NCBI GenBank assembly: GCA_021791495.1
Contig: JAJYWN010000028.1
Location: 1-54,178, forward strand
Source: Bacillota bacterium
GTDB taxonomy: Bacteria; Bacillota; Sulfobacillia; JAJYWN01
Direction of reading: 5' to 3'
DNA length: 54,178 nt
In this document: in pieces, positions 4,395-11,247 of the stretch
How the letters are laid out: the number at the start of each line of letters is the position of its first letter
Position numbering within the stretch: the first letter of the stretch is position 1
The notes under the pieces: generated by a model
Database searches by the model: none
The model's input: the letters and a program-made list of their open reading frames with translations, nothing else
Told to the model about the DNA's origin: nothing
Position numbers and translations under genes: made by a program

Positions 4395-5678
4395 CTACGG
4401 CTCCAAGGCCGCCGCGGCGCTGACGAGCGCGATCTGGGCGTGCGCATACGACAATCCACCCTGAACGTAGACGTCGAAGGGCGGGCGGATAGGTGCGTCC
4501 GCCGATAGCTCGATGGATGAACCCTGAACGAAGGCGCCGGCAGCCATCAGGATCCGGTCGGGATATCCCTCCATGGGTGCCGGCTCGGGGCGGACGCGTG
4601 AATTGACCGGACTGGCCCGTTGGATGCCGCGACAAAAAGCGATCAAACGCTCCTCTGACCCCAATCGGATGCCCTGGATGATGTCGTAACGGGCTTGCCC
4701 GGGCGCGGGTGAGACTTCATATCCCAGTTCCTTGAAGAGCGCGGCGGCGAAATGGGCGCTCTTCACCGCCTCGCCGACGACCATCGGGGCCAGGAAAAAG
4801 CCTTGGAGCACCTGGCGGGCATCGGAAGCGGTAATCCGCCCCCTTCCTCCGACTCCCGGAGCGGTCAGCCGGCGCCGTGCACCCTCGACCAAGGTAGCCC
4901 GCCCGGCCACGTAACCGCCGCCCGGGGCTAAGCCCCCGCCGGGATTCTTGATAAGTGAGCCGGCGACGAGGTCCGCCCCGGCCGCCAGCGGTTCCCGGTC
5001 TTCGACAAACTCACCATAGCAGTTGTCCACGAAGACGACCGCGCCCGGCGCCCGCCTCCGCACGACCTCGACCACTTCTCCGATACCCTGGCACGAAAGG
5101 GAAGGTCGAAACGCGTAACCACGGGATTTCTGTACCATGACCATCCTGGTCCTCGGCGTGAGAGCCGCGGCCAAAGCTTTCAGGTCCGGGCGACCGCCGG
5201 CGGTCAGACGGACTTCGCGGTAGGTGACGCCCATTGATGCCAGGGACCCTGTCGCGGCGGGAGTAGCTCCGGCCACGCCGACTACTTCTTGCAGTGTGTC
5301 GTAAGGCTGGCCGCTGGCCGCCACCAACTCATCCCCCGGCTTCAGGTTGCCGAAGAGGGCTAGAGCAATAGCGTGGGTACCCGAAACAATGCCCATGCTG
5401 ACCAGGGCGTCCTCCGATCCGAAAGCCGAAGCGAAGACGCCTTCAATGCGCTCGTGGGCCGCGCTGTGATAGCCGTACCCGGTGGACTCGGTCAGGTCCT
5501 CTTCCCCCACCCCGGCGTCGAGAAAAGCTTGAAGGACACGGGCTTGGTTGGCAGCCACGACGGTCTCGACTCCAGCCAAAACCGGTCCCAGGGCCGCCTC
5601 AGCGCGCCCGGCCGCCTCTAACAAGGCAGGACTGGCCCTAAACCTGTCCCTAAGAAGCTTCAGCGCTCTCTCGTTCAC
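4395..5678 (-). CDS. ynbB: Methionine gamma-lyase family PLP enzyme (YnbB-like)
   Basis: A fold-type I pyridoxal-phosphate enzyme of 427 aa, full length for the family once called 'aluminium resistance protein'. Visible features are SMGIVSGTHAIALALFG in the cofactor pocket, the aspartate strand FVDNCYGEF (Asp218), and the Schiff-base lysine in GSLIKNPGGG (Lys244). The GTG start overlaps the hflX stop by 4 bases, so the two are translationally coupled; hflX-ynbB is a common order in Bacillota. The physiological substrate is unclear. C-S lyase activity on methionine or cystathionine is assigned by similarity only. Confidence 0.88.
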   Translation of the reverse strand: MNERALKLLRDRFRASPALLEAAGRAEAALGPVLAGVETVVAANQARVLQAFLDAGVGEEDLTESTGYGYHSAAHERIEGVFASAFGSEDALVSMGIVSGTHAIALALFGNLKPGDELVAASGQPYDTLQEVVGVAGATPAATGSLASMGVTYREVRLTAGGRPDLKALAAALTPRTRMVMVQKSRGYAFRPSLSCQGIGEVVEVVRRRAPGAVVFVDNCYGEFVEDREPLAAGADLVAGSLIKNPGGGLAPGGGYVAGRATLVEGARRRLTAPGVGGRGRITASDARQVLQGFFLAPMVVGEAVKSAHFAAALFKELGYEVSPAPGQARYDIIQGIRLGSEERLIAFCRGIQRASPVNSRVRPEPAPMEGYPDRILMAAGAFVQGSSIELSADAPIRPPFDVYVQGGLSYAHAQIALVSAAAALEP

Positions 5679-7156
5679 CGCGGGGCCTCCCCGGTCGGGT
5701 CACCGTCTGGCCGCGCCGCAGTGCGGGGCCCACCTCCCAGCGCCGCCCTGATCCGAGAAGCCCAGACCCCAGGCAGCACCACCTTCAGCCGTACACCCTG
5801 GGGCCCGTACTCCTTCTCCTGCACCTTCCCATGCTCATGGGCCAGCGAAACCAAGTCCGACCGCTCAAAGGGCACCGTTACCCGGAGAACCTCGTAGCCG
5901 GCCGCCAGTGCCTGACCCACCCGCTCTTTCAGCTCATCTATCCCCCGCCCCGTCAAGGCGGATACGGCCACGGGCCGCCCCATGTCCGCAGGCGGGTTAT
6001 CGCACATGGCTCTGATCATATCCTCTTCCACCAGGTCGATTTTGTTGAGAACGTGGAGCACGGGGCGGTCGGACGCACCGATATCACCAAGGACCCGGCG
6101 CGTCGCCTCCAACTGCTCCCTCCACAGGCGCTGCGCCAGGTCGGTCACCACCAAGATAAGGTCCGCCTCCAGGACTTCTTCCAAGGTCGCCCGAAAAGCG
6201 GCCACCAGGTGGTGCGGGAGCTTGCGGATGAAACCGACGGTGTCGGTCAGGAGCACCTCGCGACCGCCCGGAAGGTCCACCTTGCGGGTAGTGGGGTCCA
6301 AGGTGGCAAAGAGCTTATTCTCCACCAGAACGTCAGCGCCGGTCAGGGCCCGAAACAGCGTGGACTTGCCGGCGTTCGTGTATCCCGCCAGGGCCACCAC
6401 GGGCACTGGCACACTACGGCGGGAAGTCCGGTGCAGGCCGCGCTGCTGCCGCACGCCCTCCGTCTCGCGTTTCAGGTCGGCGATGCGCCGGCGGATGGCC
6501 CGCCGGTCGGTCTCCAGCTTGGTCTCGCCCGGACCCCGGGTCCCAATGCCGCCGCCCAAGCGCGACAGCTCTGTGCCCCTTCCAGCCAGGCGCGGCAGCC
6601 GGTAGTTTAGCTGGGCCAGTTCGACCTGCAGCTTGCCCTCGCGGGTCTGCGCTCGCCGGGCGAAGATGTCCAGGATCAACTGGGTGCGGTCGACGACGTC
6701 GACCTTCAGCGCCTCCTCAAGGTTGCGGAGTTGCGTTCCCGAAAGCTCGTCGTCGACGATGATACCCGAGGCACCAGTTCCTTCGACCAGCGTGGCGACC
6801 TCTCTTGCCTTGCCTTCCCCTATGTAGGTGGCCGGGTCTGGATGCGGGCGCTTTTGGATGATCTTTCCGGCGACCCGTAGACCCGCCGTGTCCGCCAGCT
6901 CCCCCAGTTCCTCCAGGGAATCTTCAGGGGTGACCCCAACCCAGGCCAGTGTGTCTGCCCCGGCCACGGCCGGCCCCCAGGGCCCCAGGCCGGCCCCGCC
7001 GCCACCACTGTCACCTCCGCCGGTACCCCCACGGGCCGCCACCAAGCCGGTCGGCCCGCCCGGCACCCCGCCGGCAGGCGTGTCTAGCCCGACCAGAATC
7101 ACCGCGTCCCTGGTATCTTCTTCGGGCGAATGGGGTGTATTATTGTGTGTCGCCAA
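5675..7156 (-). CDS. hflX: HflX, ribosome-associated GTPase
   Basis: GTPase that binds the 50S subunit and splits stalled or stressed ribosomes. The N-terminal HflX domain contains PATYIGEGKAREV (about 108-120), and the linker has LGGGIGTRGPGETKLE. The G domain has G1 GYTNAGKST (258-266), G3 DTVGF (305-309) and G4 NKID (371-374). The product is 493 aa, longer than the usual 420-450 because a Gly/Ala/Pro-rich insert (about 27-67) interrupts the N-terminal strand between ILVGLDTP and the SLEELGELADTAG helix. The start is TTG behind a G-rich Shine-Dalgarno. A hairpin separates it from the upstream gene, so it may have its own promoter. Confidence 0.95.
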   Translation of the reverse strand: MATHNNTPHSPEEDTRDAVILVGLDTPAGGVPGGPTGLVAARGGTGGGDSGGGGAGLGPWGPAVAGADTLAWVGVTPEDSLEELGELADTAGLRVAGKIIQKRPHPDPATYIGEGKAREVATLVEGTGASGIIVDDELSGTQLRNLEEALKVDVVDRTQLILDIFARRAQTREGKLQVELAQLNYRLPRLAGRGTELSRLGGGIGTRGPGETKLETDRRAIRRRIADLKRETEGVRQQRGLHRTSRRSVPVPVVALAGYTNAGKSTLFRALTGADVLVENKLFATLDPTTRKVDLPGGREVLLTDTVGFIRKLPHHLVAAFRATLEEVLEADLILVVTDLAQRLWREQLEATRRVLGDIGASDRPVLHVLNKIDLVEEDMIRAMCDNPPADMGRPVAVSALTGRGIDELKERVGQALAAGYEVLRVTVPFERSDLVSLAHEHGKVQEKEYGPQGVRLKVVLPGVWASRIRAALGGGPRTAARPDGDPTGEAPR

Positions 7157-7311: not shown

Positions 7312-8238
7312 TCAGTGGGGAATGATAGGCCTCTCGCCTGTCCCCTCCCCACCGGGTTCCACCCCGCCGCCCGACTCCGGCAGGGCGCCCGGTACCTGAA
7401 TCTCCTCGGGCGCCCCCGGCGGCGGCGACAATAGAGCGTACCCCATACGGACCAGTTCCGTGTTCAGCAGAAACTCGTCGCCTTCCTCGCCGCTGCCCAT
7501 GACCCAGACCAGACCCGCCGTGCGCCCCCCCGATTCGGGCCCACCCGCCCACAACTTGACCCGTACATCTTTCCCTTGGGCCAAGGCGCGGAGGACTTCA
7601 GCCGCGTCGGCGTACCGCGGGTCGTCGGGGGCTGGGGAAAGGATCCCCAGAAGAGTCACGTTCTCGGTGCCGTCAAGGGTCACCACACCGGCCTCCGGCA
7701 CATTGGTAACTCTGGCGTAGAAACCTTCCCCTTCCTCCGCGTCACCGCCGGTCGCGAAAACAGGTACCGCCGCCCGTCCGGTTTCCAGGCCCATCCCGCC
7801 ACCGCCCGAGGAGACCGTCCCCGAAGGCTCGTTCTCCTTATGAGCAGCCACCTCCGGTACCGGTGGGAACGCCATGGGCGTGGACGGGAAAGCCCGACCG
7901 GCGACATAACCGAAAGCCAGCATCAGCACTACGAAATAACCAGCCAAGGCGATGAGTCGTTCCACCTTCCACTTGACCCCACGGAAACCGGGCATCCACC
8001 GGTACGAACCGTGCAGGCCCATGGCCATGACCACCAGCAGGTATGCTATGGCGAGGGATAGCCCTCCCAGAAGGTCGTTGGTGCGGTAGGCCGTCCAGGC
8101 GCCTCCGCCCATCACGGCATAGAAGGCGACATAACAAGGAAAACGGAGGAACCGGAAGAGACTGAAACGGCCGCGGCGCTGGGCTAGCCAGTCATCGCGG
8201 AGTTTGGCTTTCCGGGCTCGGCGCTTTGGGAGGGACAC
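7312..8238 (-). CDS. Three-TM membrane protein with degenerate SNase-like domain
   Basis: A 308-aa protein with three hydrophobic segments (about 32-52, 57-75, 95-115), a flexible Gly/Ser/Glu linker, and a C-terminal domain (about 172-272) that reads like a staphylococcal nuclease (TNase) fold: VVTLDGTENVTLLGILSP, then GKDVRVKLW, GGRTAGLVWV and LLNTELVRMGYALL. The strand order and the closing LN..LV..GYA helix fit. The catalytic Arg and acidic residues of the RL-G-IDTPE motif are replaced (TLLGILSPAP), so nuclease activity is unlikely and a binding role more probable. The start is GTG behind GAGGTGG. It overlaps the preceding small membrane gene by 55 bases. The SNase assignment is by pattern, not alignment. 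Confidence 0.7.
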   Translation of the reverse strand: MSLPKRRARKAKLRDDWLAQRRGRFSLFRFLRFPCYVAFYAVMGGGAWTAYRTNDLLGGLSLAIAYLLVVMAMGLHGSYRWMPGFRGVKWKVERLIALAGYFVVLMLAFGYVAGRAFPSTPMAFPPVPEVAAHKENEPSGTVSSGGGGMGLETGRAAVPVFATGGDAEEGEGFYARVTNVPEAGVVTLDGTENVTLLGILSPAPDDPRYADAAEVLRALAQGKDVRVKLWAGGPESGGRTAGLVWVMGSGEEGDEFLLNTELVRMGYALLSPPPGAPEEIQVPGALPESGGGVEPGGEGTGERPIIPH

Positions 8239-8516
8239 ATGACCACCTCGGGCTGATTATCCCTCACCAAGGCACCGTTATTCTGGCCTTGTTGGCTTTC
8301 CGGCGCCGCCTCCGCCGTTTCCGGCCAAGCCGCGGAGCCGCAGAGGAGGCATTGCCCGTCCAGCAGTGCACGGGCCCGCATCCTCAAGGGGGCTTCGGCC
8401 ATCCCCAAGGCGTAACCACGCCGCCCGCCGGCACGGCGGCCGAGGGCGTAACCGGTGGCGAAGGCCGCCAACGCCGTCATGAAGGTAACTCCGATAGCAG
8501 TCCACACGGTGATCAC
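8184..8516 (-). CDS. Small single-pass membrane protein, unknown
   Basis: I do not recognise this protein. About 110 aa: an N-terminal hydrophobic segment (about residues 1-25), a basic stretch (GRRAGGRRG), a MAEAPLRMRARALLDGQCLLCG section with a CxxC pair, and a polar C-terminal tail. The GTG at 8516 is preferred because it overlaps the stop of the UbiA-like gene as GTGA; an upstream GTG at 8537 is possible. Its end runs 55 bases into the next gene. It belongs to the tightly packed spoVK-GTPase-UbiA-like group. The CxxC could bind a metal, but one pair alone is weak evidence. Confidence 0.5.
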   Translation of the reverse strand: MITVWTAIGVTFMTALAAFATGYALGRRAGGRRGYALGMAEAPLRMRARALLDGQCLLCGSAAWPETAEAAPESQQGQNNGALVRDNQPEVVMCPSQSAEPGKPNSAMTG

Positions 8517-9130
8517 AGCCGGCTTCCCGACCGCCACCTCTTGATGATCCGTTCGCCGACCCAGATGAGACCGGCGCTGGCTATGACCGCCACACCCAGG
8601 CTGAAGTCCCCCAACAGCGCCGCCACCGCCAGCGCCGCTCCCGCCACCCCGGTCTCCACCCGCCCGAACCGCGCCGCCAAATTAGCCTGGCCCACTAGTC
8701 CATCCTCGTGCCAGTCCATCACGTCGTCCCAGCACTGGACGGCGGCCATCCCCGCCAGGGCCGCCCCCGCCAACCGCCCGCCCGCCAGAAGGGCCGCCAG
8801 TCCCACGGCCAGACAAGACTCCACCCACGCCGGCAGGCCGGACGGCATCCGCTGCCGGGGCAACCCGAACATCCCCACGGCGTAACTGGCCAGGAACATC
8901 ACCGTCGCTACCTTGGGCGCCAGTGCGCCCGCTACCGCAAGGGCCGCCGCGCCGTAGGGAAAGGCCCAGGCCGCTCGGTCCTCGGGGGCGGCGTCCAGAA
9001 AATCGTCCAGGATCTTCACGGCCACGCCCGTCAGCAGTGTGGCCAGGAAGGTCTGGACCAGCCCGGCGAGGCTCGCGATGGTTGCGTCTCCGGGGAATAG
9101 ACCCGCGGTTTCAAAGAAGCCGCCGGACAC
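8513..9130 (-). CDS. UbiA-like integral membrane protein
   Basis: A 205-aa, largely hydrophobic protein with about six membrane segments and two aspartate-rich motifs, KILDDFLDAAPED (about 39-51) and CWDDVMDWHEDG (about 133-144). These sit where the two NDxxDxxxD-type motifs of UbiA prenyltransferases lie, and are followed by QANLAARFGRVETG. It is shorter than a typical UbiA enzyme (about 290 aa), so it may be a reduced family member or only a distant relative. The start is GTG behind GGGAGG and overlaps the GTPase gene by 20 bases. Prenyl transfer is inferred from the Asp motifs alone; the acceptor cannot be guessed from the neighbours. Confidence 0.6.
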   Translation of the reverse strand: MSGGFFETAGLFPGDATIASLAGLVQTFLATLLTGVAVKILDDFLDAAPEDRAAWAFPYGAAALAVAGALAPKVATVMFLASYAVGMFGLPRQRMPSGLPAWVESCLAVGLAALLAGGRLAGAALAGMAAVQCWDDVMDWHEDGLVGQANLAARFGRVETGVAGAALAVAALLGDFSLGVAVIASAGLIWVGERIIKRWRSGSRL

Positions 9131-9767
9131 CGGCGCGAACCTCCCGGAAACCCCGCATGGTCAGGGCCGAGACGGGCATCACGCGGTCCCGCCCGAAGGC
9201 CTCCCGGATGACCCCCAGTCCCCGGTCGGCTTCGGGCAGGTCCATTTTGTTGGCCAGAATCAGGTATTGCGGGCGGAGCCGCGCGTACCGTGCCACCTCG
9301 TAGTCGATGCGCCCGAGCCCCAGCGCCGGTCCGTCCTCCCCCACCCGGGCGGCGTCGATGACGTGCAGGACGACGTCGGCGCGAAGGAGGGCTCCGATGG
9401 TCTGGGCCATCCCTTTGCGGACATCGGCGTCGCCGTGGATGTGCTCGGCCAGCCCGGCCGAATCCACCACCGAAAACCCCTGTTTCCCTTTGCCAACGGA
9501 GAGTTCCAGGTCGATGGCCGCCAGGTCCCTCGTCTTGTACGGCTCGGGACTCACCAGAGTGCGCCGGGCAGTGTCGAAAGGGACTCTGGCGACGGCTTCC
9601 ACGCCGGACCCGGCCCCTGGTCCGGCCCCCCCCGCCCCCTCCCGCGAAGGGACCAGGGCCAAGCGCCGGAGGCGCAGGTCGCGCGCTCCGAGATAAGCGG
9701 CGAAGTTCACGGCGAAAAGGGTCTTGCCGGCGTTGGTCGCGCCGACCAGGAGGAAGGAACGGCCCAT
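9111..9767 (-). CDS. Small P-loop GTPase
   Basis: A compact 218-aa GTP-binding protein: G1 GATNAGKT (9-16), G3-like VDSAGL (101-106) and G4 NKMD (173-176), with SAL near the C-terminus as a possible G5. There is no second domain, only a short Gly/Ala insert (about 43-55). The P-loop resembles the TrmE-Era-type class, but I cannot name a subfamily. The ATG lies 2 bases after the spoVK stop, so the two are cotranscribed, and the end overlaps the UbiA-like gene. GTP binding is well supported; the target is unknown. Confidence 0.8.
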   Translation of the reverse strand: MGRSFLLVGATNAGKTLFAVNFAAYLGARDLRLRRLALVPSREGAGGAGPGAGSGVEAVARVPFDTARRTLVSPEPYKTRDLAAIDLELSVGKGKQGFSVVDSAGLAEHIHGDADVRKGMAQTIGALLRADVVLHVIDAARVGEDGPALGLGRIDYEVARYARLRPQYLILANKMDLPEADRGLGVIREAFGRDRVMPVSALTMRGFREVRAGVRRLL

Positions 9768-9769
9768 CG

Positions 9770-10798
9770 CTAGACCACTTCCTCGAGGTCCGACGGAAGC
9801 AGTAACATCAGTTCGTCCCGCGTCGCCTCCGGCCGCCCCACCAGCCTGGTGGCGTGTCGCCGGATGGCCCGCTCGATGAGGTTCCGCACCAGGCGGGCGT
9901 TGCCGGAGTTCTCGTCCAGCCGGCTGCGCGCGGCGACAATGTTGGACAGCTTGGCCTGGGACTCTTCGGCCAGCACGTATTGCCTTTTCTCCAGCATCAG
10001 GCGGGCGATGCGCAGCAGTTCCTCAAGGCTGAAATCGGGGAAGTCGATGTGGATCGGGAAACGCGACTTGATACCGGGGTTCTGCCGGATGAAGTGCTCC
10101 ATCTCCCTGCGGTAGCCCGCCAGGATGACGATGAGGTTCTCTTTATTGTCTTCCATGGCCTTGACCATAGTGTCAATGGCTTCCTTGCCGAAGTCCTTCT
10201 CCCCGCCACGCGCCAACGAGTAGGCTTCGTCCACGAAAAGGATGCCGCCCATGGCCTTTTTCAGCTGCTCGCGTGTTTTTTGGGCCGTGTGGCCGATGTA
10301 CTCGCCCACCAGATCGGCCCGTTCCACCTCGACGAGGTGGCCCTTCTGGAGAACGCCCATCTCCTTGAAAAGGCGGCCGATAATCCGCGCCACCGTCGTC
10401 TTGCCGGTGCCGGGGTTACCCTTGAAAATCATGTGTAAAACCAAGGGGTCGCTGGCCAGCTGTTCGCGTGCCCGCCGGCGCTGCACTTCGATGTAGGCCT
10501 GGATCTCGCGGATGAGCTCCTTCACGGAGTCCAGGCCGATGAGGGTATTCAGCTCGTTCCAGACCTCATCGATGGCGCGCGGGCGTGGTTCGGGAATGGC
10601 GGTGCCGTTGGAGGCCGAGGAGCCGGCCCGGCCGGTGCCACCGCCGCCCTCCAGCGCCTCGGCCCTCTGCAAGGCGCGCAGGGCGTCGTAGGGAGACAGC
10701 TGCCCCATCTCCACCATCTGCGTGACATTTTCGGGAGTGACCAAAAGGTCGGGGGGCAGGCCGTAGGGACCTACCGGGGGAATTAGCTGGCTTGCCAT
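9770..10798 (-). CDS. spoVK: SpoVK-like AAA ATPase
   Basis: Single-domain AAA+ ATPase of the SpoVK/CbxX-CfxQ family, required late in sporulation in Bacillus. Of 342 residues, the first 75 are a variable N-terminal region with a short Gly/Ser linker. Then come NTLIGLDSVKELIREI, Walker A GNPGTGKT (127-134), Walker B ILFVDEAYSL (186-195), and the second-region motif NSGNARLVRNLIERAI with the sensor-2 arginine. The ATG at 10798 is chosen because GGAGGG precedes it by 5 bases. It lies 125 bases downstream of hfq. The position between hfq/miaA and hflX matches the usual spoVK locus in Firmicutes. Confidence 0.9.
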   Translation of the reverse strand: MASQLIPPVGPYGLPPDLLVTPENVTQMVEMGQLSPYDALRALQRAEALEGGGGTGRAGSSASNGTAIPEPRPRAIDEVWNELNTLIGLDSVKELIREIQAYIEVQRRRAREQLASDPLVLHMIFKGNPGTGKTTVARIIGRLFKEMGVLQKGHLVEVERADLVGEYIGHTAQKTREQLKKAMGGILFVDEAYSLARGGEKDFGKEAIDTMVKAMEDNKENLIVILAGYRREMEHFIRQNPGIKSRFPIHIDFPDFSLEELLRIARLMLEKRQYVLAEESQAKLSNIVAARSRLDENSGNARLVRNLIERAIRRHATRLVGRPEATRDELMLLLPSDLEEVV

Positions 10799-10894
10799 AG
10801 TTGCCCTCCAGAGCACTACATTATATCGGGGCTCTGGGGCAAAGGTACCAGACGGATCGGGCGTCGCGCCTATGCGCCTGGGTGACCGTCCTGC

Positions 10895-10905
10895 GGGGGG
10901 GGGGG
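10895..10905. repeat. Run of 11 guanines
   Basis: An uninterrupted G11 tract (C11 on the coding strand) in the hfq-spoVK gap, about 97 bases before the spoVK start. It lies outside coding sequence; its length may vary by slippage or be a sequencing uncertainty. Confidence 0.9.
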
Positions 10906-10923: not shown

Positions 10924-11178
10924 CTACTCCCCTTCCCGTCGCGACTCGGCGGGAACGGTGTAGTTGATGGCCCGGACCGGGGTCACAGTGGAGATGGCGT
11001 GCTTGTAGACCAGAAGCTGCTTGCCTTCGTTCTCCAGCACCACGGTGAAGCTGTCGAAACCTTTGATCATGCCTTTCAGCTGTACGCCACTGATGAGGTA
11101 AACGGTCACCGGGACGTTCTCTTTCCGCACTTGGTTCAGAAAGGTATCCTGCAGGTTGACGGGTGTCTTAGTGGTCAT
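10924..11178 (-). CDS. hfq: Hfq, RNA chaperone
   Basis: Sm-like hexameric RNA chaperone that binds U-rich and A-rich RNA. The 84-aa product has the Sm1 motif ([26 protein letters not shown]) and the Sm2 signature YKHAIST. The C-terminal tail is short and acidic, as in Gram-positive Hfq. The ATG at 11178 gives standard family length; the upstream GGAGGG is 12 bases away, slightly far. The gene follows miaA by 69 bases, the same miaA-hfq order as in Bacillus and Escherichia. Confidence 0.96.
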
Positions 11179-11247
11179 GACGGGCGATAACCCTCCAGTG
11201 GCCTGCTTCTCTCCAAGTCCGGTCCGGCCTCCCAAGCTCTTTTCAGG

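Follow-up and report, generated by a model that had tools for sequence, protein, structure and literature searches.

Introduction

In Bacillus subtilis the AAA+ ATPase SpoVK is required for assembly of the spore surface and cortex, and its activation of MurG is a recent and incompletely understood finding. On the surface of the forespore SpoVK is described as the activator of MurG, and reports of SpoVK are confined to sporulating Firmicutes (PMC10659427). For another B. subtilis protein, ShfA/YabQ, binding of undecaprenyl phosphate at the forespore membrane has been proposed (PMC13232292). Here we analyse spoVK and its companions in a 54,178-nucleotide (nt) stretch from a Bacillota bacterium of the class Sulfobacillia (contig JAJYWN010000028.1; 'the window' hereafter means this whole stretch). 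Here spoVK is directly followed by three genes, which code for a GTPase, a miniature UbiA-like membrane protein and a small membrane protein with a CxxC pair, companions that it is not known to have in B. subtilis. We find that the same four genes recur in relatives and that every genome carrying the GTPase also encodes the sporulation protein SpoIVA.

In the open literature, as covered by titles and the openings of abstracts and with subscription journals mostly outside that coverage, no description of this operon was found. The words GTPase, UbiA and prenyltransferase are absent from a study of minimal sporulation gene sets (PMC3533761), and in the accessible text of PMC10659427 'GTPase' occurs in reference titles only. 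Figure 3A of the latter (operons, with a 'ZnBd' label), the image of which lies outside that text, may already depict some of these genes as an operon.

Results

Gene order and co-occurrence

Searches for the GTPase covered 101 genomes from the class and a collection of GTDB contigs; flanking sequence was then retrieved, and 67 relative loci (two contigs are counted twice, L032/L149 and L042/L133) were searched in six frames for the genes of the cluster. SpoVK, GTPase, UbiA-like and CxxC genes stand together in 41 of the 67, five of these also with the gene of a membrane protein that has a staphylococcal nuclease (SNase)-like domain; 17 loci have SpoVK and GTPase only, two have the GTPase, UbiA-like and CxxC genes without SpoVK, and one has the GTPase alone. 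Identical gene order was found again in unrelated genera, so the cluster is more than a chance arrangement. The original prediction, made from the letters of the window, had counted the SNase-like gene as a fifth member of the unit; this did not hold, since the gene was detected in only 6/67 relative loci. Judged from gene content across these loci, the conserved unit is spoVK, GTPase, UbiA-like and CxxC, with the SNase-like gene as an accessory of restricted lineage distribution. The features of the window are:

9770..10798, minus strand: spoVK, AAA+ ATPase, 342 amino acids from the ATG at 10798 (TIGR02881, PF00004, PF17866)
9111..9767, minus strand: SpoVK-associated GTPase, Era/Obg-like P-loop, 218 amino acids (PF01926, MMR_HSR1, expect value (E) 1.1e-9)
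8513..9130, minus strand: miniature UbiA-like membrane protein, 205 amino acids, internally duplicated, GTG start
8184..8537, minus strand: small CxxC membrane protein, 117 amino acids (alignment of 20 members)
7312..8238, minus strand: membrane protein, 308 amino acids, degenerate SNase-like domain at the C terminus, lineage-restricted
10819..10848, minus strand: candidate degenerate sigma-K-like promoter, GTAC (10848-10845), 17 nt, GATATAATG (10827-10819)
10924..11235, minus strand: hfq, flanking gene (PF17209, E 6.5e-33)
5675..7156, minus strand: hflX, flanking gene (PF13167, PF16360, PF01926)

The prediction of five closely spaced genes between hfq and hflX is borne out: all lie on the minus strand, spoVK and the GTPase gene being separated by 2 nt, and the overlaps that follow in the window measuring 20 nt (GTPase/UbiA-like), 25 nt (UbiA-like/CxxC) and 55 nt (CxxC/SNase-like), before a gap of 155 nt to hflX. 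The spoVK reading frame opens upstream at GTG 10816 (10816-9770), and the true start is probably ATG 10798, downstream of a Shine-Dalgarno-like GGAGGG at 10809-10804. The hfq-spoVK intergenic region has a run of eleven G on its plus strand (10895-10905), upstream of the candidate promoter. In B. subtilis, too, spoVK lies beside hflX and ynbB.

Co-occurrence was counted in 199 genomes of the phylum with completeness of at least 90%, the window's own genome included. Thresholds were E<=1e-60 for SpoVK (TIGR02881) and, with profiles, E<=1e-20 for the GTPase, E<=1e-6 for the UbiA-like protein and E<=3.1e-8 for the CxxC protein; the CxxC count leaves out seven genomes with weak matches only (E 0.003-0.01), and where a carrier genome had a weak second match, that match was left out throughout. 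SpoVK is present in 145/199 genomes, including a few with only a CbbX-like score, SpoIVA (TIGR02836) in 173/199 and the GTPase in 55/199 (81/299 when the phylum was sampled more widely). The UbiA-like and CxxC proteins occur in an identical set of 48 genomes, nested in that of the GTPase; the seven GTPase genomes without them belong to four of the 27 carrier families, and no family is mixed. All but one of the 55 GTPase genomes have SpoVK, so the co-occurrence with spoVK that the original prediction had proposed as a check was found, and all 55 have SpoIVA (Fisher P-value 2e-4 for the GTPase-SpoIVA association, with kinship ignored).

Distances in this set run between profile matches, not gene ends. 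In 49 of the 54 genomes that have both, the SpoVK and GTPase matches share a strand and are separated by 10-265 nt; the GTPase is close to the UbiA-like gene in 47/48 genomes, and the UbiA-like gene to CxxC in 48/48. In the remaining five of the 54, SpoVK and the GTPase are parted by intervening genes, lie on opposite strands or sit on different contigs, and the GTPase, UbiA-like and CxxC genes stay grouped, followed in 5/5 by hflX and/or ynbB.

These separated cases suit an explanation in which the trio forms a vegetative module with a membrane or lipid task, is lodged in an old mutL-miaA-hfq-spoVK-hflX block, has no role with SpoVK and owes its position to inheritance, as does the conservation of the block well beyond the trio, in which hflX and ynbB also tend to hold position. 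Several findings speak against it: the GTPase is found in 0/26 SpoIVA-negative against 55/173 SpoIVA-positive genomes and in 54/145 SpoVK-positive against 1/54 SpoVK-negative ones, 39 of the 49 close pairs have their SpoVK and GTPase matches within 50 nt of each other, and spoVK of the relatives is preceded by a sigma-K-like element (below). We regard this explanation as unlikely.

Some loci deviate in other ways. In L168, L179 and L180 hfq lies downstream of the GTPase and UbiA-like genes (in L168 and L179 also of CxxC), not upstream of spoVK. The GTPase match is split or carries one in-frame TAA in L177 (G204) and in G214:C3, by sequencing error or decay. In L164 (G221) a short SpoVK-like stretch (7388-7594) stands beside the trio at the contig end with the full spoVK on another contig, which may reflect duplication, relocation or an assembly effect.

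SpoVK and the element upstream of its gene

The window's SpoVK matches TIGR02881 with E 1.8e-124 and 413.9 bits, against a curated cut-off of 422.95. Only 19 of the 199 genomes pass this cut-off although 145 match at E<=1e-60, so we consider the cut-off narrow. The TIGR02881 match, slightly short of the curated score, assigns the protein to the AAA+ family of B. subtilis SpoVK. The second-best family, CbbX, scores far lower (278.9 bits). The AAA+ core (PF00004, E 7.8e-19), the lid (PF17866, AAA_lid_6, E 1.7e-18) and a Walker A motif GNPGTGKTT are present.

Promoters of sigma-K have an AC-type -35 box and a CATAnnnTA-type -10 box. A -10-like box, CRTATANTR, is found in full upstream of spoVK in 22/75 loci, against 0.6 expected and 0-1 per control set, an enrichment that is post hoc, the box having been spotted in the spoVK upstream regions themselves. 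With one mismatch it occurs at 36/75 spoVK starts (11.1 expected), and among the controls at 16/41 hfq starts (8.5 expected) and 5/32 HflX starts (2.1 expected), the others being at or below expectation. A two-box model, GCAC-N15-18-CRTANNNTR, was fitted on dpaA with the spoVK sequences already seen and is thus not blind; at a score of at least 9/10 it is matched at 27/75 spoVK starts (4.2 expected), 8/21 dpaA (1.0 expected), 1/20 spoIIIAA, 2/18 spoIVA and 1/214 of the pooled housekeeping starts of MiaA, MutL, HflX, YnbB and Hfq. Internal genes of the cluster stay near expectation, with 7/83 at GTPase starts (5.2 expected) and 2/58 at UbiA-like starts (3.1 expected).

The likeness to dpaA, which we take to be a sigma-K gene in B. 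subtilis, extends to the -10 box (CRTATANTR in full in 3/21; CATANNNTR in 9/21 versus 0.6 expected). Other types were considered and set aside: sigma-E-like weights gave only weak enrichment on spoVK upstream regions (21/75-76 versus 12.2 expected at a score of at least 15), and CRTATANTR is found in full in just 1/38 spoIVA and 0/20 spoIIIAA upstream regions. The spoVK genes of the relatives thus seem to be preceded by an element resembling a late mother-cell (sigma-K) promoter. For B. subtilis spoVK, PMC517825 describes two promoters, P1 for sigma-E and P2 for sigma-K, and PMC10659427 names sigma-E only. The window's genome has two dpaA-family matches (contigs C25 and C62; E 4.2e-69 and 8.8e-61), both below the curated cut-off.

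The UbiA-like protein

UbiA proteins carry two aspartate-rich motifs, (N/D)DxxDxxxD and DxxxDxxxG. In the window's protein these correspond to DDFLD from residue 42 and DDVMD from residue 135, and both motifs are complete, with E replacing the last D of the first. Across 36 length-filtered members Asp42, Asp43, Asp46, Asp135, Asp139, Tyr59, Gly86, Met87 and Glu104 are shared; the first motif reads DDxxD in 36/36 and DDxxDxxx[DE] in 30/36, and DxxxD of the second is kept in 36/36. The window's protein has no match in Pfam or NCBIfam; PF01040 is matched by 15 of the 36 members at E<=1 (best E 1.3e-7). Profile alignment to nine canonical UbiA proteins, chosen by eye for UbiA-type motifs among 17 open reading frames of the same class, is colinear over columns 17-206 with E 8.6e-4 (trimmed, 1.9e-3), against about 0.08 for reversed and unrelated controls. 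Earlier canonical sets that included wrong-frame or mixed reading frames gave chance-level alignments (E 0.16 and 0.056).

The two halves of the family align with each other (probability 96.8, E 2.4e-10, score 58.9), and 30 column shuffles reach at most 14.4. Canonical UbiA halves score about 21 on each other, apparently in the same motif register as read by eye, and each half of the UbiA-like family weakly matches both UbiA motif regions (E 0.0018-0.019). The UbiA fold has nine helices. An AlphaFold2 model of the window's protein (predicted local distance difference test, pLDDT, 91.6) is a helical bundle with seven long helices. The protein appears to share with the UbiA superfamily (4tq4, DGGGP synthase 6m31, and the membrane-bound phosphoribosyltransferase 8j8k, whose substrate is a polyprenyl phosphate) a helical membrane bundle with two Asp-rich motifs in register, and differs in its length of about 200 amino acids, its seven long helices, its strong internal repeat (58.9 versus about 21) and a score below the Pfam level. 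The label 'shortened UbiA-like' given in the original prediction is correct and can be sharpened: judged by these alignments, the protein is a miniature, internally duplicated UbiA relative with five invariant aspartates. The C. difficile CD0982 'ubiA', seen in the accessible part of a sporulation regulon table, was considered as the same gene, with no evidence there either way.

With its invariant aspartates, five in all, placed where UbiA has its two motifs, and fold matches that are mostly, if weakly, to isoprenoid synthases and UbiA, the protein might be an active prenyltransferase making an isoprenoid peculiar to spores (prenylated quinone, sugar or glycerophosphate), with SpoVK and the GTPase regulating or repairing the enzyme. 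Its 205 amino acids compare with the 250 positions of the Pfam profile, the second motif is complete in just 17/36 members, and the operon holds no evident substrate gene; we give this possibility little credence.

The GTPase and the start of the UbiA-like gene

The G1, G3 (DxxG) and G4 (NKxD) motifs of the GTPase are intact. In an alignment of 47 sequences (five of 52 candidates, taken through a length-range filter, are not included) Gly9, Gly14, His135 and Asp176 are invariant, and Lys15, Asp102, Gly105 and Lys174 nearly so. His135 (47/47) and the near-invariant Asp138 sit in an LHxxDA strand, both being to our knowledge unusual among Era/Obg-type GTPases. By profile the nearest families are Obg, Der, HflX and Era, and the nearest solved chain is Obg 1lnz (E 2.5e-17). 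The window's protein shares with Obg, Der and Era the P-loop with DxxG and NKxD, and has a hydrophobic residue after DxxG; it differs as a bare domain with the invariant LHxxDA His, and it falls below every NCBIfam equivalog cut-off (ObgE 35.8/406, Der 32/306.7 and HflX 14.5/216.75 bits). That it is a translation or ribosome-assembly factor like its profile neighbours Der, Obg and HflX, grouped with hfq and hflX and with the membrane genes hitching along, is very unlikely given this distance from the cut-offs, its bare 218-amino-acid domain and a start-coupled partner that is a membrane protein.

Both genes are present in 59 loci. In 42 of these a start codon, mostly TTG, is found within the GTPase gene exactly 20 nt from its end, preceded by an AGGTGA-like site (seen by eye), and the called overlap of the GTPase and UbiA-like genes is exactly 20 nt in 35/59. 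The Phe codon of the GTPase that supplies the TTG is TTT in 36/41, against 15.4 (standard deviation 2.4) expected from the same loci, and in the two available cases in which the UbiA-like gene is absent it is TTC. Given this bias the UbiA-like start inside the GTPase gene looks selected, with the reservation that related loci are not independent.

The CxxC and SNase-like proteins

The CxxC protein consists of one hydrophobic segment, a GRR motif (G-R-R-x-G) and a CPxC-like pair in a short tail. Gly33, Arg35, Gly37, Gly41, Cys63 and Cys66 are invariant in the 20 members aligned (five of 25 candidates, likewise length-filtered, are not included), and we infer a putative zinc-binding function. 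The window's protein has no family match in Pfam or NCBIfam; where one or two members hit the Rad50 zinc hook, the PknG rubredoxin or Yae1, we treated this as chance.

One of seven SNase-like members, not that of the window, matches PF00565 (E 6.9e-5), and the family profile matches SND1 3bdl (E 0.0012). A Pfam match of the window's protein to SirB (E 0.021) is far under the cut-off and was disregarded. Staphylococcal nuclease is numbered with catalytic residues Asp21, Arg35, Asp40 and Glu43. None of these is kept in the SNase-like alignment, with the register set by eye, and the domain appears to have lost its nuclease residues. The AlphaFold2 model is poor (pLDDT 59.6), and Foldseek on this low-confidence model returned nothing convincing, the first SNase-related row being Tudor-SN 2wac (E 0.6). 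What likeness there is to staphylococcal nuclease (PF00565, SND1), besides the PF00565 match of one member, lies in the beta-alpha order predicted by that model, and the difference in the membrane anchor and the unkept catalytic positions.

Discussion

The original prediction saw one membrane-associated process, possibly in sporulation. Co-occurrence, SpoIVA in all GTPase carriers and the sigma-K-like element in relatives favour this for four of the genes, and the SNase-like gene falls outside. That these four are a conserved unit with a link to sporulation is quite probable on this comparative evidence. We further propose that spoVK, GTPase, UbiA-like and CxxC form a mother-cell module at the forespore membrane that would support cortex precursor synthesis, a proposal to which we give about an even chance.

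From what is reported for SpoVK, MurG and ShfA (above) and from the anatomy of the proteins, a mother-cell complex can be imagined as follows. The four genes would be one mother-cell sporulation operon. The mini-UbiA protein would act at the outer forespore membrane and bind a polyprenyl phosphate or diphosphate, most likely undecaprenyl phosphate, with Mg2+ held on the cytosolic face by its two DDxxD-type motifs; we rate carrier binding at slightly under an even chance. The CxxC protein would be a one-pass anchor clamping the complex, perhaps as two protomers sharing one zinc ion, and the GTPase, produced in step with mini-UbiA, would turn the assembly on and off. SpoVK would do the remodelling, using this platform to bring enzyme and lipid carrier together so that cortex precursor can be made, the details of such a handover being speculative, and the SNase-like protein would be a non-catalytic lineage add-on. 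The parallel with ShfA is one of working principle, with no homology claimed: ShfA is likewise a mother-cell membrane protein and proposed undecaprenyl phosphate binder where SpoVK and MurG act, and it differs in having four intramembrane polar residues in place of two DDxxD-type motifs.

Several observations weigh against this proposal. The GTPase is absent from 91 of the 145 SpoVK-positive genomes, and the B. subtilis spoVK presumably manages without GTPase, UbiA-like and CxxC companions. Six of the 67 loci have SpoVK, GTPase and UbiA-like genes without a detected CxxC gene (one of them with the SNase-like gene); in L112, L123 and L127 the contig stops where the gene is expected, while in L143, L144 and L147 it is undetected although the contig continues. 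Gene order alone could be inherited, the mutL-miaA-hfq-hflX neighbourhood being ancient and the statistics ignoring phylogeny. Full two-box matches also occur at GTPase starts (2/83 versus 0.1 expected). The window's own element, GTAC-N17-GATATAATG, scores 8/10, under the cut-off of 9, a second 8-point site exists in the window, and the element appears degenerate and is unconvincing by itself. For the UbiA-like protein, besides the often incomplete second motif, the PF01040 gathering score of 34.2 is not reached (best 31.6 bits, ten members scanned singly), so that we call it UbiA-like and not a PF01040 member. Matches to isoprenoid synthases and UbiA in structure searches are weak, with a best Foldseek E of 0.1; the best VIA-align row, the UbiA homologue 4tq4 (Z 7.8, root-mean-square deviation 2.5, 84 residues), is only supportive, as unrelated helical proteins reach Z 6-7.

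Many spore-forming relatives retain or lack the trio as a set, suggesting a so far undescribed machine that builds the spore wall. The partners kept adjacent to SpoVK in many spore formers have clear predicted activities and offer direct handles: a G-protein switch, a candidate lipid-carrier binder and a membrane anchor. The family of duplicated mini-UbiA proteins also bears on the origin of the UbiA fold. In the boldest reading, which we hold to be possible but doubtful, SpoVK in many spore formers would not act as a chaperone on its own; it would drive a membrane machine under G-protein control that handles the undecaprenyl carrier on the forespore, and the membrane part of this machine would be a minimal, near-symmetric duplicated UbiA-type protein, perhaps near the duplication from which the UbiA fold arose, acting on a polyprenyl phosphate in an undescribed reaction or handover.

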